Positions 878 to 24,262 of a DNA stretch of 64,000 nucleotides are shown here, one piece after another. Source of the stretch: Caldicellulosiruptor naganoensis (lineage in GTDB: Bacteria > Bacillota > Thermoanaerobacteria > Caldicellulosiruptorales > Caldicellulosiruptoraceae); NCBI RefSeq assembly GCF_026914285.1, contig NZ_CP113864.1, forward strand, positions 1,457,001 to 1,521,000, in the 5' to 3' direction. Position 1 is the stretch's first letter; every line of letters starts with the position of its first letter. A program made the translations under genes and the position numbers. The notes below the pieces were generated by a model. It was not told the origin of the DNA. It did no database searches and was given only the letters and a program-made list of their open reading frames with translations.

Positions 878-1690
878 TTATTTATTTTTATTTGCCAACT
901 CTTCAAAAGCTTCACTGACAATTTCTTGGATTTCGTTATCATTTAAAATGTTTTGTGGAAATTCCTCTTGTTTAATGTAAAGTAAATACTCAATATTACC
1001 TTCTGGACCTTTTACAGGAGAGTATGTCAATCCTTTTATACTAAGACCTAAGGAAAAATAACAACTAACAACCTTTTTAATCACATTAACATGGGTTTGG
1101 CTTGATCTAACAACTCCTTTCTTTCCAACCTCCTCTCTTCCAGCTTCAAATTGGGGTTTTATTAGCAAAATACCTTCAGTACCTTCTTCCATAAACTCTT
1201 TTATTTTATGTGAAATAAGCGTCAATGAGATGAATGAAACATCACATACAACTATATCAATTCTATCAGGTATCTTTTCTCTCTCAAAATACCTAAAATT
1301 TGTCTTCTCAAAATTGACAACTCTTGGATCTTCTCTTAGCTTCCATGCAAGCTGGCCATAGCCAACATCAACACAGTAGACCTTCTTTGCACCATGCTGC
1401 AGAAGACAATCTGTAAACCCCCCAGTTGAAACGCCCACATCTAACGCAATCTTATGAGCAACATCTATCTTAAAAAAATTCAATGCTTTTTCAAGTTTAA
1501 ACCCGCCTCTGCTCACATACTTAAGAGGTTCTTTTACCACAATTTGAGCATTACAATCAATCAGTTCCCCTGCCTTTTCAACCTTTTGGTTATCTACGTA
1601 TACATTTCCACTTAAGATAAGCGCTTTTGCTTTTTCACGAGACTCTGCAAAACCTTTTTCAACAAGCAAGATATCTGCCCTCTTTTTCAA
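878..1690 (-). CDS. tlyA: TlyA-family rRNA 2'-O-methyltransferase (S4 + FtsJ-like)
   Basis: 270 residues, the usual TlyA length. The N terminus is an S4 RNA-binding domain (about residues 1-60: RADILLVEKGFAESREKAKA and VYVDNQKVEKAG). The rest is an FtsJ-like SAM-dependent methyltransferase, with ALDVGVSTGGFTDCLLQHGA as the SAM-binding loop and VVCDVSFISLTLI and LLIKPQFEAGREEVGKKGVV further on. Characterised TlyA proteins methylate cytidine 2'-OH groups in 16S and 23S rRNA; some were historically called hemolysins. The start overlaps the dxs stop by 4 bases (ATGA), so the two are probably translationally coupled. Pairing with dxs is common in Firmicutes. Confidence 0.93.
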   Translation of the reverse strand: MKKRADILLVEKGFAESREKAKALILSGNVYVDNQKVEKAGELIDCNAQIVVKEPLKYVSRGGFKLEKALNFFKIDVAHKIALDVGVSTGGFTDCLLQHGAKKVYCVDVGYGQLAWKLREDPRVVNFEKTNFRYFEREKIPDRIDIVVCDVSFISLTLISHKIKEFMEEGTEGILLIKPQFEAGREEVGKKGVVRSSQTHVNVIKKVVSCYFSLGLSIKGLTYSPVKGPEGNIEYLLYIKQEEFPQNILNDNEIQEIVSEAFEELANKNK

Positions 1691-3540
1691 TTTTTTATCA
1701 ACTCCATAATTACATTTTTCAAACTTTTTCTATCTAAACCTAATAAAGAATAAAGCTCCCCAATTGATCCATGTTGAATAAACTTATCGGGAAGACCAAT
1801 ATGTTTTATTAGATTTGAGCTATTCTTTTCAGCAATGATACCTTTTATCTTTTCCCCAAGACCACCAATAATAGTATTGTCCTCTACAACCAAAATCTTT
1901 TTATGTGTCTTTATTATCGTCTCTATAAGTTCAATATCTAAAGGTTTTAAAAATCTTACATTTATCAATGTTGCATTTAAATTATTTTCACAAATAATAT
2001 CATACAACATTGAGACATGTCTTCCAACAGCAAAAATAGCCAAATCCCGGCCTTGTGCCAAAATCTCAGATTTTCCAAATAAAATTGGTTCATAAATGCC
2101 AATGGTTTTGGTTGTTCCTCTTGGATATCTTATTGCAAGAGGTCCTCTATCATACACTGCTGCAAATTCTAACATCATTTCAAACTCTTTTGTATCTTTT
2201 GGAGCCATTACAGTCAAATTAGGTATTAATGTAAGATAAGATATATCAAAGCTGCCATGATGAGTCTCCCCGTCTTCACCAACAAGCCCCGCCCTATCTA
2301 TACAAAATACCACATTAAGGTTCTGTATACACACATCATGAATTATCTGGTCAAACGCACGCTGTAAAAAAGTAGAATATATAGCAATAAACGGTTTTAG
2401 GCCTTCTTTTGCAAGTGCTGCAGCAAAAGTTACAGCATGCTCTTCTGCAATCCCGACATCGAAAAATCTTTCAGGATATATTTTTCCAAAGCGACTCAAA
2501 CCAGTTCCATCAGGCATAGCAGCTGTTATCGCTACAATTCTTTGGTCATTTTTTGCAAGTTCGCAAAGCTTATCTCCTAATACCTCAGAAAAACTTTTAG
2601 AATTTGTGTCTGTCAAGTGATTTCCTGTCTCTACGTCAAATGGTGGAACACCATGATATTTTTCTGGAAACTTTTCAGCATGCTCATAACCCTTACCTTT
2701 TTGAGTTACAACATGAACTAATACAGGCCTTGTCAAATTTTTAACGTTTTCAAATACCTCACACATCTTTTTTATGTCATGTCCATCAATAGGCCCGTAG
2801 TACTCAAAGCCAAGGGCTTCAAAAAGTGTGCCAGGAAAAAGTATATATTTAAGACCACCTTTTAACTTTTTTATCAAATAATTAAGCTTTTCTCCTACTA
2901 ATGGAATTTTTGCAACGAACTCATCAGTAACCTTTTTCAATTTAAAATATTTAGGTTGTGTTCTAACTTGTGACAAATACTTAGCAATTGCACCAACATT
3001 TTTCGAGATTGACATTTCGTTGTCGTTCAATATTACAAGAAGTTTTCCATTATACCTTCCTGCATTGTTAAGGCCTTCATAGGCAAGTCCACCTGTCAAA
3101 GCACCGTCTCCTACTACAGCAATTACATTATAATCTTTATGATTTAAGTCACGAGCAATAGCAAATCCGAGCGCCACTGAGATGGATGTTGAACTGTGTC
3201 CTGTGTCAAATGAGTCATAGATACTTTCTTTTGTCTTCGGAAAGCCGCTCAAACCACCTAACTTTCGCAAAGTAGCAAACTTTTCTTTCCTTCCTGTCAG
3301 AATTTTATACACATAGCATTGGTGACCTACATCCCACACAATTTTGTCATGGGGGGGATTGAATGTATAAAGTAGTGCCAGCGTCAGTTCTACAACACCC
3401 AAATTTGCTGCCAAGTGTCCACCAGTATTTGCAATATTATATAATAAAAACTTTCTAATCTCTTCAGATAAAGAGTATAGCTCTGATATACTGAGTTTTT
3501 TTATATCTTCAGGGTAGTTTACTTTTTCTAATATACCCAA
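1687..3540 (-). CDS. dxs: 1-deoxy-D-xylulose-5-phosphate synthase
   Basis: Thiamine-diphosphate enzyme that condenses pyruvate with glyceraldehyde 3-phosphate, the first step of the MEP isoprenoid pathway. At 617 residues it is full length. Visible features are TGGHLAANLGVVELTLAL, the VWDVGHQCYVYKILTGRK segment, the ThDP/Mg motif starting GDGALTGG and ending in LNNAG, and DRAGLVGEDGETHHG in the pyrimidine-binding domain with the catalytic Glu in GIAEEHAV. The C-terminal transketolase-like domain is complete. It lies 19 bases after oapA and overlaps tlyA, so it is likely transcribed from the OLE promoter. In other OLE-bearing genomes isoprenoid genes also flank the OLE-oapA pair. Confidence 0.97.
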   Translation of the reverse strand: MGILEKVNYPEDIKKLSISELYSLSEEIRKFLLYNIANTGGHLAANLGVVELTLALLYTFNPPHDKIVWDVGHQCYVYKILTGRKEKFATLRKLGGLSGFPKTKESIYDSFDTGHSSTSISVALGFAIARDLNHKDYNVIAVVGDGALTGGLAYEGLNNAGRYNGKLLVILNDNEMSISKNVGAIAKYLSQVRTQPKYFKLKKVTDEFVAKIPLVGEKLNYLIKKLKGGLKYILFPGTLFEALGFEYYGPIDGHDIKKMCEVFENVKNLTRPVLVHVVTQKGKGYEHAEKFPEKYHGVPPFDVETGNHLTDTNSKSFSEVLGDKLCELAKNDQRIVAITAAMPDGTGLSRFGKIYPERFFDVGIAEEHAVTFAAALAKEGLKPFIAIYSTFLQRAFDQIIHDVCIQNLNVVFCIDRAGLVGEDGETHHGSFDISYLTLIPNLTVMAPKDTKEFEMMLEFAAVYDRGPLAIRYPRGTTKTIGIYEPILFGKSEILAQGRDLAIFAVGRHVSMLYDIICENNLNATLINVRFLKPLDIELIETIIKTHKKILVVEDNTIIGGLGEKIKGIIAEKNSSNLIKHIGLPDKFIQHGSIGELYSLLGLDRKSLKNVIMELIKN

Positions 3541-3559: not shown

Positions 3560-4108
3560 CTATGTCTTTATAAATATGCTGAGGATCTTCCCGCTTATTT
3601 TAACTATATCATGACTTTTTTTAATTGCAAAATACTTGCCTATTGCTTTACCTGAAATGGTCACAGCAGCAACAGTTGCTGTTAAAAGCAAAGATAGAAA
3701 CACAATATCAGCATTACTATTTTTTGAAATATAGAAAATGATACTTGCTGAGAGCGAACCGCTCAATATTCCACATATATCTCCTATTACATCATTGCAA
3801 ATTGAAGAAACTCTACTTGCATTTTTAATAAGCCAAATACTATTTTTTGCACCTTTCACCTTTTTAGCAGCCATCGCATGAAAAGGAACCTCGTCAGCAG
3901 CTGTAGTTGCTATTCCTATTATATCAAATAAGATTCCGATTAAGATTATCAACAACAAAAGTATGAATGATATAGTAATTGGCAATTTCTTAGACACAAT
4001 ACTTGAAATGTAATTTAAAGACGCAGATAACAAATAAGATAATATAAACAAAAAAGCGACCCACCTAAAATAATTTGACTTTTTGTTTTGTGATTTTTTA
4101 CTCCCCAT
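3560..4108 (-). CDS. oapA: OLE RNA-associated membrane protein OapA
   Basis: Small integral membrane protein of 182 residues. It has a basic N terminus (GSKKSQNKKSNY) and four likely membrane segments near residues 15-35, 42-65, 118-130 and 135-155. The conserved segment GIATTAADEVPFHAMAAKKV is followed by GAKNSIWLIKNASRVSSICN and DVIGDICGILSGS, as in OapA and, more distantly, the DUF21/CNNM membrane domain. OapA binds OLE RNA and recruits it to the membrane; OLE and OapA mutants in Halalkalibacterium halodurans are sensitive to short-chain alcohols, cold and Mg2+. The gene begins about 60 bases after the OLE RNA on the same strand, the canonical arrangement. The start has a GGAGAGGGAAAATGGGG context. 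Confidence 0.9.
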   Translation of the reverse strand: MGSKKSQNKKSNYFRWVAFLFILSYLLSASLNYISSIVSKKLPITISFILLLLIILIGILFDIIGIATTAADEVPFHAMAAKKVKGAKNSIWLIKNASRVSSICNDVIGDICGILSGSLSASIIFYISKNSNADIVFLSLLLTATVAAVTISGKAIGKYFAIKKSHDIVKISGKILSIFIKT

Positions 4109-4170
4109 TTTCCCTCTCCACTAATTGTAATAACTTCCATTTTACCTACCCTTAAAATATACAAATTTAT

Positions 4171-4789
4171 GGGATAGGGTGATTTTACGAAGGGTAAATT
4201 TTGCGGCTTAAGGTCTGGTAGGATTTCCCCCAAACTTACCTCCCGTCGCCAGGAGGCGGTTTCCCTTTAAAAGTTTGGGTGTGCGGTTGCCCAACACACA
4301 ACCAGATCGCCACTTAGTCCGCACTTTAATCCCCTTCGTAAAGCCGAGAAATCGGCACAGCCTAGGAGCTTTCCTCGACAGAGGGCATGCTTTCTAGCCT
4401 CTTTTGCGAAATAGATTTCAGGCCTCAAGACTCCTCTAAAAACGGGCCCTATTTTTAGAGGAGCCACAAATTCGGCCATCCGTCTATTTCGCTCAAGGCA
4501 GGCTACACTACCCCAAGCACATCTACTCATCGTAGATGTACCTGGCGGTAGGTTTTACTAACGCACAAAAAGAACTAAAAAGAGAGCTTTTTGTGCGTTA
4601 GCCTCCGCGGGAAAAGGGTTCCATCCTGCATGCCATTGCAGGACTCCCTTATCCCTTACTCCCAGCTTCAACCCCTGACTGGGCGTCAGAAGCCGAAACC
4701 AGGAACTTCATCGGTGTGCCCTTTGGCGGATTTTTAGGCCCGCCTTCGAAAGCAGCCACTCTGACTAGGATACTGCATCACCCTATCCC
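4171..4789 (-). ncRNA. ole: OLE RNA (ornate, large, extremophilic RNA)
   Basis: A gene-free, GC-richer block of about 620 bases directly upstream of oapA. Its two ends pair: the minus strand opens with GGGATAGGGTGAT (complement of 4777-4789) and closes with ATCACCCTATCCC (complement of 4171-4183), a perfect 13-bp terminal helix. Internal stems are clear: 15 bp between 4558-4572 and 4587-4601, 8 bp between 4519-4526 and 4532-4539, a 12-bp stem around 4433-4462 (CTCCTCTAAAAA pairs with TTTTTAGAGGAG), and TCCTGCA/TGCAGGA near 4624-4644. Size, strand, terminal pairing and the adjacent OapA gene together match OLE RNA. Weak ORFs inside it on both strands show no protein-like signal. Confidence 0.93.
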
Positions 4790-4825
4790 ATCTTATAGCC
4801 TTTTTTATTCAATTTTCAGAATAAT

Positions 4826-4854
4826 ATTATACCACAGCTTCTTTTGGGTTTCAA
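4826..4854 (-). promoter_or_regulatory. Sigma-A-type promoter for OLE RNA-oapA-dxs
   Basis: Minus-strand TTGAAA (complement of 4849-4854) and TATAAT (complement of 4826-4831) are separated by exactly 17 bases, close to the consensus. Initiation about 7 bases past the -10 box would start RNA near 4819, about 30 bases before the OLE terminal helix. The -35 box contains the TGA stop codon of the upstream PAP2 gene, so the promoter is built into the end of that gene. No terminator separates it from the upstream pheST-pcrA-PAP2 genes, so read-through is possible. Confidence 0.8.
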
Positions 4855-5309
4855 ACCAACAATGTAGCAAGTACAATTCCAAGAAGCGCTCCTACAAACA
4901 CTTCTGTTGGTTTGTGGCCTATTAACTCTTTCAATTTATGCTGTGGCTTGTAATGTGGAGAAAAGTACATCTCAATCAGTTCGTTCAATGTCTGTGCTTG
5001 TTTACCAGCCTCTCTTCTCACGCCTGCTGCGTCATACATAACAATCAATGTAAATGTCAGCGAAATAGCAAAATTTGTCGAGTTAAAACCATCAATAAGC
5101 CCCACTGCAGTTGAAAGACCACATGCAAATGCTGAATGTGAGCTTGGCATTCCACCTGAGCTAATAAACTTTTTAAAATCAATCTTTTGTGTCATGACAA
5201 AGGTTATTATTATTTTTAAAAACTGAGCCACAAACCAACTCATCACACCTACCTGCAAAGCCTTGTTTGTAATTATCTCATATACAACCTGTTTCATCTT
5301 CCCCCTCAA
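4851..5309 (-). CDS. Divergent PAP2-family membrane protein (DUF212, YuiD-like)
   Basis: 152 residues with several hydrophobic segments and the PAP2-like signature GGMPSSHSAFACGLSTAVGL near residue 52. AGKQAQTLNEL and a C-terminal GHKPTEVFVGALLGIVLATL follow. This is the divergent PAP2 (DUF212) family; enzymatic activity is not established, though relation to phosphatidic acid phosphatases suggests lipid phosphate chemistry. Its ATG overlaps the pcrA stop (ATGA type). Its stop codon is embedded in the -35 box of the OLE promoter. The C-terminal half of the 18404-19102 protein carries a similar signature. Confidence 0.88.
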   Translation of the reverse strand: MRGKMKQVVYEIITNKALQVGVMSWFVAQFLKIIITFVMTQKIDFKKFISSGGMPSSHSAFACGLSTAVGLIDGFNSTNFAISLTFTLIVMYDAAGVRREAGKQAQTLNELIEMYFSPHYKPQHKLKELIGHKPTEVFVGALLGIVLATLLV

Positions 5310-24085: not shown

Positions 24086-24262
24086 TTATCTGCGCTTTCT
24101 CCTACGTGCCGCTTCTGATTTCTTTTTCCTTCGTACGCTTGGGCTTTCATAGTGCTCTCTTTTTCTAAGCTCTGCTAAAATCCCAGCCTCTGCTAATTTC
24201 TTCTTAAATCTCCTGAGGGCACTATCGAGCGATTCATTTTCGCCCACTCTTACTTCTGACAT
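24086..24262 (-). CDS. rpsU: 30S ribosomal protein S21
   Basis: 58 residues, beginning [20 protein letters not shown] and ending in a very basic tail ([15 protein letters not shown]), the S21 pattern. A longer frame from 24280 exists, but its extra residues RGGNL are the translated ribosome binding site GAGAGGAGGG. The ATG at 24262 with that RBS 5 bases away is the real start. First gene of the rpsU-yqeY unit behind the promoter at 24319-24348. Confidence 0.96.

Follow-up and report, generated by a model that had tools for sequence, protein, structure and literature searches.

Sequence analysis of a full-length OLE RNA locus and its terminal helix in Caldicellulosiruptor naganoensis

Gene organization of the locus

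The window analyzed here, a 64-kb stretch of the C. naganoensis genome, contains a gene-free block of 742 bases (4109-4850), which is bounded upstream by a gene for a DUF212 (divergent PAP2) protein (4851-5309; PF02681, E 2e-51) and downstream by oapA (3560-4108), dxs (1687-3540) and tlyA (878-1690), all on the minus strand. A cmscan search with Rfam 15 gave OLE (RF01071) as the sole Rfam match in the window, from 4797 to 4163 on the minus strand, with a score of 552.4 bits (E 2.9e-159) in comparison to a gathering score of 50 bits. The match spans model positions 1 to 616 of 616, and the OLE RNA is thus full length. An earlier reading of the letters alone (the sequence-only reading) had proposed that the OLE RNA here is complete and comes with a terminal helix, a promoter and oapA, and had named the covariance-model search as a check; the proposal is borne out by this match. 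The only open reading frame of at least 80 aa wholly within the block (87 aa, 4267-4530, minus strand) is internal to the OLE RNA. The folding energy is -313.8 kcal/mol, which corresponds to z = -13.9 relative to 20 dinucleotide shuffles. We regard it as nearly certain that the locus is an intact, functional OLE RNA gene, which is a statement about its identity and not about its working mode. As such, it is a textbook member of an already known family and no new class of RNA, and nearly all results at the locus agree with published OLE biology.

The OLE RNA is present in a single copy in the genome (2,494,610 bases, one contig), the whole of which was searched for a second copy without finding one. 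Every one of the genus's 12 genomes has an OLE RNA, and so do 290 of the 398 that were sampled across the phylum, in which OLE can therefore be regarded as common. No OLE was found in viral contigs by a search with an 18-base conserved pattern, and none was found in phage records. The OLE RNA of one locus elsewhere (L069, genome G050) is divergent and has a low score of 169.9 bits, but it retains a P1-like terminal helix. Another OLE locus (L217, 2343-2896) lies on a contig labeled as an Armatimonadetes MAG, outside Bacillota, and this genome may be mis-assigned or mis-binned. In Pusillibacter faecalis, an OLE-like match (L246; region 195854-206470 of NZ_AP023421.1) was observed on a 504-kb replicon labeled as a conjugative plasmid, where it is followed by a gene with a CNNM domain (OapA-type), dxs, tlyA, NAD kinase, argR and recN.

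The gene immediately after the RNA encodes a protein of 182 aa, and its start codon ATG (4108) lies about 60 bases past the 3' arm of the terminal helix P1 and about 55 past the Rfam OLE end. The match of this protein to PF01595 (CNNM) is weak (E 5.6e-5, below the Pfam cut-off), its hydropathy profile has four hydrophobic peaks, and the DxxxD motif known as the OapA signature (PMC11332333) reads DVIGD, of which D, G and D are invariant in 147 homologues. Together with gene order, these features identify the product of the gene as OapA, the OLE-associated membrane protein A. The protein resembles the CNNM membrane domain of MpfA in its weak CNNM match and its four hydrophobic peaks, and differs from MpfA in carrying neither CBS nor CorC domains and in its invariant DxxxD. 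For comparison across the family, we collected 149 OLE loci and reduced them to 104 non-redundant loci at less than 90% identity. An oapA homologue immediately follows OLE in 103 of these, and the position of the OapA gene given by the sequence-only reading, about 60 bases after OLE, was likewise found to be correct.

Further downstream, dxs (1-deoxy-D-xylulose-5-phosphate synthase; TIGR00204, 800 bits), a homologue of which was found in 98 of the 104 loci, is separated from oapA by about 20 nt and overlaps by 4 nt with tlyA (TlyA-family rRNA methyltransferase; TIGR00478, 277 bits). No terminator-like site was found on the minus strand between OLE and dxs, and one weak terminator-like site is located inside dxs (2066-2042). 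Since the gaps are short, the OLE-dxs interval lacks a terminator-like site and the order is kept across loci, it is plausible that dxs and tlyA are co-transcribed with OLE. In H. halodurans, a single polycistronic RNA covers the OLE cluster (PMC12265935).

Promoter upstream of the OLE RNA

A sigma-A type promoter with an extended -10 element (TG before the -10 box) was identified at 4826-4854 on the minus strand, consisting of TTGAAA (4854-4849), a spacer of 17 nt and TATAAT (4831-4826), with 11 of 12 matches, and it outranks all other sites between 3400 and 5500. The -10 box ends 29 bases ahead of the Rfam OLE start (4797), in agreement with the promoter about 30 bases before OLE that had been noticed earlier, and the TGA stop codon (4853-4851) of the upstream DUF212 gene falls within the -35 box. 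The 12 genomes of the genus all share the -10 box, while bases near it vary. The results for the 67 bases before P1 in the 104 loci showed TGnTATAAT in 76 loci in comparison to a shuffle mean of 1.2, and TATAAT in 84 loci in comparison to a shuffle mean of 14.1; the numbers were lower in a second, named set (19 of 60 and 28 of 60, respectively). The OLE of H. halodurans also has a separate promoter inside a larger operon (PMC9723947).

Covariation of the P1 terminal helix

The two ends of the RNA form a perfect inverted repeat of 15 of 15 bases, ATGGGATAGGGTGAT (4169-4183) with ATCACCCTATCCCAT (4777-4791), 593 nt apart, which provides the 5' arm (AUGGGAUAGGGUGAU, 4777-4791) and the 3' arm (AUCACCCUAUCCCAU, 4169-4183) of helix P1 on the minus strand. 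The end-to-end helix of the sequence-only reading is therefore real, but its length is 15 bp and not the 13 bp given there. This is the longest uninterrupted run in the 104-locus sample, in which the median is 10. The Rfam consensus structure leaves the P1 positions unpaired, so the RF01071 match is uninformative on P1 and the helix needed a test of its own. For this test, the 3' strand was aligned without pairing information. The published numbering of P1 is used here as given in later reviews.

Each of the inner pairs 1 to 11 is present in between 63% and 100% of the 104 loci, mostly with several pair types; pair 8, for example, is T-A in 37, C-G in 26, A-T in 9 and G-C in 6. The mean pairing of the first 8 pairs was 0.94 in comparison to 0.77 in column shuffles, none of 500 of which reached 0.94, and it fell to 0.30 to 0.65 when the partner was slid by 1 to 3 positions. 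When changes were counted by the Fitch method on a tree built with FastTree from the RNA core, about 164 double compensatory changes between standard pairs were inferred for pairs 1 to 11 in the 104 loci, in comparison to 25 to 43 double changes with the partner strand slid by 1 or 2 positions. P1 is thus kept by compensatory change in relatives, which was the second check named for the locus. The outer pairs 12 to 15 showed no family-wide covariation support in the 104 loci; among members of the genus they are shared as identical sequence, and in some species the helix measures 14 bp. Judged from these alignments, the family-wide support for P1 is limited to the inner 11 bp or so.

Just outside the P1 3' arm, 33 to 46 bases after a conserved GACCT, a TACATA hexamer was observed in about one third of other OLE loci (for example L011, L063, L090 and L145). 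It was counted in 32 of the 104 non-redundant loci and in 23 of the 60 named loci, in comparison to 0 to 3 in control windows of the same length, and it is not part of the Rfam OLE consensus. The hexamer is absent from the locus studied here and from the genus. As a guess, it might be a 3'-end processing site, or it could be a promoter element for oapA. One may further imagine an OLE precursor cut at a fixed point just outside P1, for which TACATA in many lineages and the lengthened P1 of 14 to 15 bp in this genus are alternative solutions to 3'-end formation, and we consider this scheme rather improbable.

Internal stems and loops

The several long internal stems of the sequence-only reading were also recovered. 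They include a perfect 15/15 hairpin in the P7 region (4558-4601, minus strand), a 12/12 hairpin at the tip of P9 (4431-4463, minus strand) with the palindromic loop GGGCCC (4444-4449), an 11/11 pair (4184-4194 with 4332-4342) and a 13/15 pair (4401-4415 with 4483-4497). The next inner stem, in the P2/P3 region, joins CAGUAUCCUAG (4765-4775, minus strand), unpaired in the Rfam structure, to CCUAGGCUG (4358-4366, minus strand) and is supported by covariation, as 95 of 98 loci have U-A or C-G at the y-r position of CAGUAUyCUAG/CCUAGrCUG. The P4 hairpin (4725-4744, minus strand) has a conserved A-rich loop (CUAAAAAU) in agreement with the Rfam consensus, and the P4 loop is a known OLE dimer contact (PMC12265935, PMC12286853). 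The P9 loop here contains the GGCC which serves dimer kissing in other OLE RNAs (PMC12286853). With the L5 and L6 consensus letters retained along with the A-rich L4 and the palindromic L9 (GGGCCC), the RNA resembles those of H. halodurans and Clostridium in its conserved P4, P5, P6 and P9 loops, its P1 clamp and its own promoter within a gene cluster. Local elaborations that set it apart from other OLE RNAs are the 15-bp hairpin of the P7 region and an extended hairpin in the P8 region.

One difference from H. halodurans concerns the CCUCC anti-Shine-Dalgarno mimic described in P6 of that OLE RNA for bS21 binding, which is missing in P6 here. Because the mimic is absent from this locus and is found in the P6 region of only 24 of 103 sampled OLE loci, bS21 binding may not be general.

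Protein partners in the genome

Genes for further partners of OLE were found in the genome. OapB is encoded between map and infA and matches PDB 7k9b, "OLE-associated protein B" (E 1e-9), a candidate OapC, an L7Ae/YbxF-type protein, is encoded after rpoC and matches PDB 4lck (YbxF; E 5e-13), and rpsU, which encodes the known OLE partner bS21, lies in the window at 24092-24256 on the minus strand (genome 1481092-1481256; PF01165, E 7.3e-22). With oapA directly downstream of the RNA and genes for OapB, an OapC-like protein and bS21 in the genome, the system is like the OLE systems of H. halodurans and Clostridium. In the whole genome oapA was the sole CNNM match, from which we conclude that the genome is without MpfA, in agreement with the published anticorrelation of OLE and MpfA (PMC11332333).

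Alternative explanations

The block precedes oapA by about 55 to 60 bases and has the same orientation, no terminator-like site separates OLE from dxs, and the OLE-oapA order is constant in 103 of 104 loci. All of this would suit a riboswitch-like role, in which the block is not a free RNA but mainly a structured 5' leader of very large size controlling oapA, dxs and tlyA in cis. However, P1 closes the whole RNA of about 620 nt on itself as in free RNAs, with strong covariation, and the OLE of H. halodurans is a stable, abundant RNA of about 630 nt which binds OapA, OapB and OapC (PMC9723947, PMC12265935). A predominantly cis-acting leader is thus considered very unlikely. Less probable still, to a degree that is practically negligible, is a remnant of OLE that has decayed or matches by chance and has no function, as no point in its favor was found and both the full-length match of 552 bits and the perfect P1 count against it. 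The remnant reading is refuted by conservation, since every one of the 12 genus members keeps the promoter and the neighbor.

Proposed model and implications

For the intact OLE RNA gene favored here, the mode of action is best considered in the light of other species. OLE forms a membrane RNA-protein complex in which an RNA dimer is joined through L4, L5/L6 and L9 (PMC12265935, PMC12286853). Read at the level of sequence, the C. naganoensis genome holds a full-length RNA with a covarying P1 clamp, a sigma-A type promoter, and genes for OapA, OapB, an OapC-like protein and bS21. By analogy with other species, the RNA would start near 4819, fold, and dimerize through its P4, P5/P6 and P9 loops, and an OapA dimer would hold it at the membrane. 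Transcription from the OLE promoter, as well as upstream transcripts, probably extends through oapA, dxs and tlyA, with processing just outside P1 releasing the mature RNA. As extrapolated from H. halodurans, the complex would aid adaptation to stress such as alcohol, cold, Mg2+ and poor carbon sources; the sequence-only reading, which had named an OLE-OapA complex at the membrane with roles in alcohol, cold and Mg2+ tolerance, is in line with the literature on this point. Among the views of what the RNA does, we tentatively favor the published hypothesis, at somewhat below even chances, that OLE RNA is a regulatory partner of the CNNM-like OapA and replaces the soluble domains of MpfA. A genome without MpfA, a Mg2+ exporter, is consistent with the RNA standing in for these domains.

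As by-products, the analysis provided family-wide covariation for P1, a helix which is unpaired in the Rfam model, and family-wide evidence for OLE having its own extended -10 promoter, while the TACATA motif outside P1 could guide work on OLE 3'-end formation. Few structured RNAs of bacteria whose biochemistry is still unsolved are as large as OLE RNA, and for this reason each clean genomic copy, such as the one described here, is useful comparative material.
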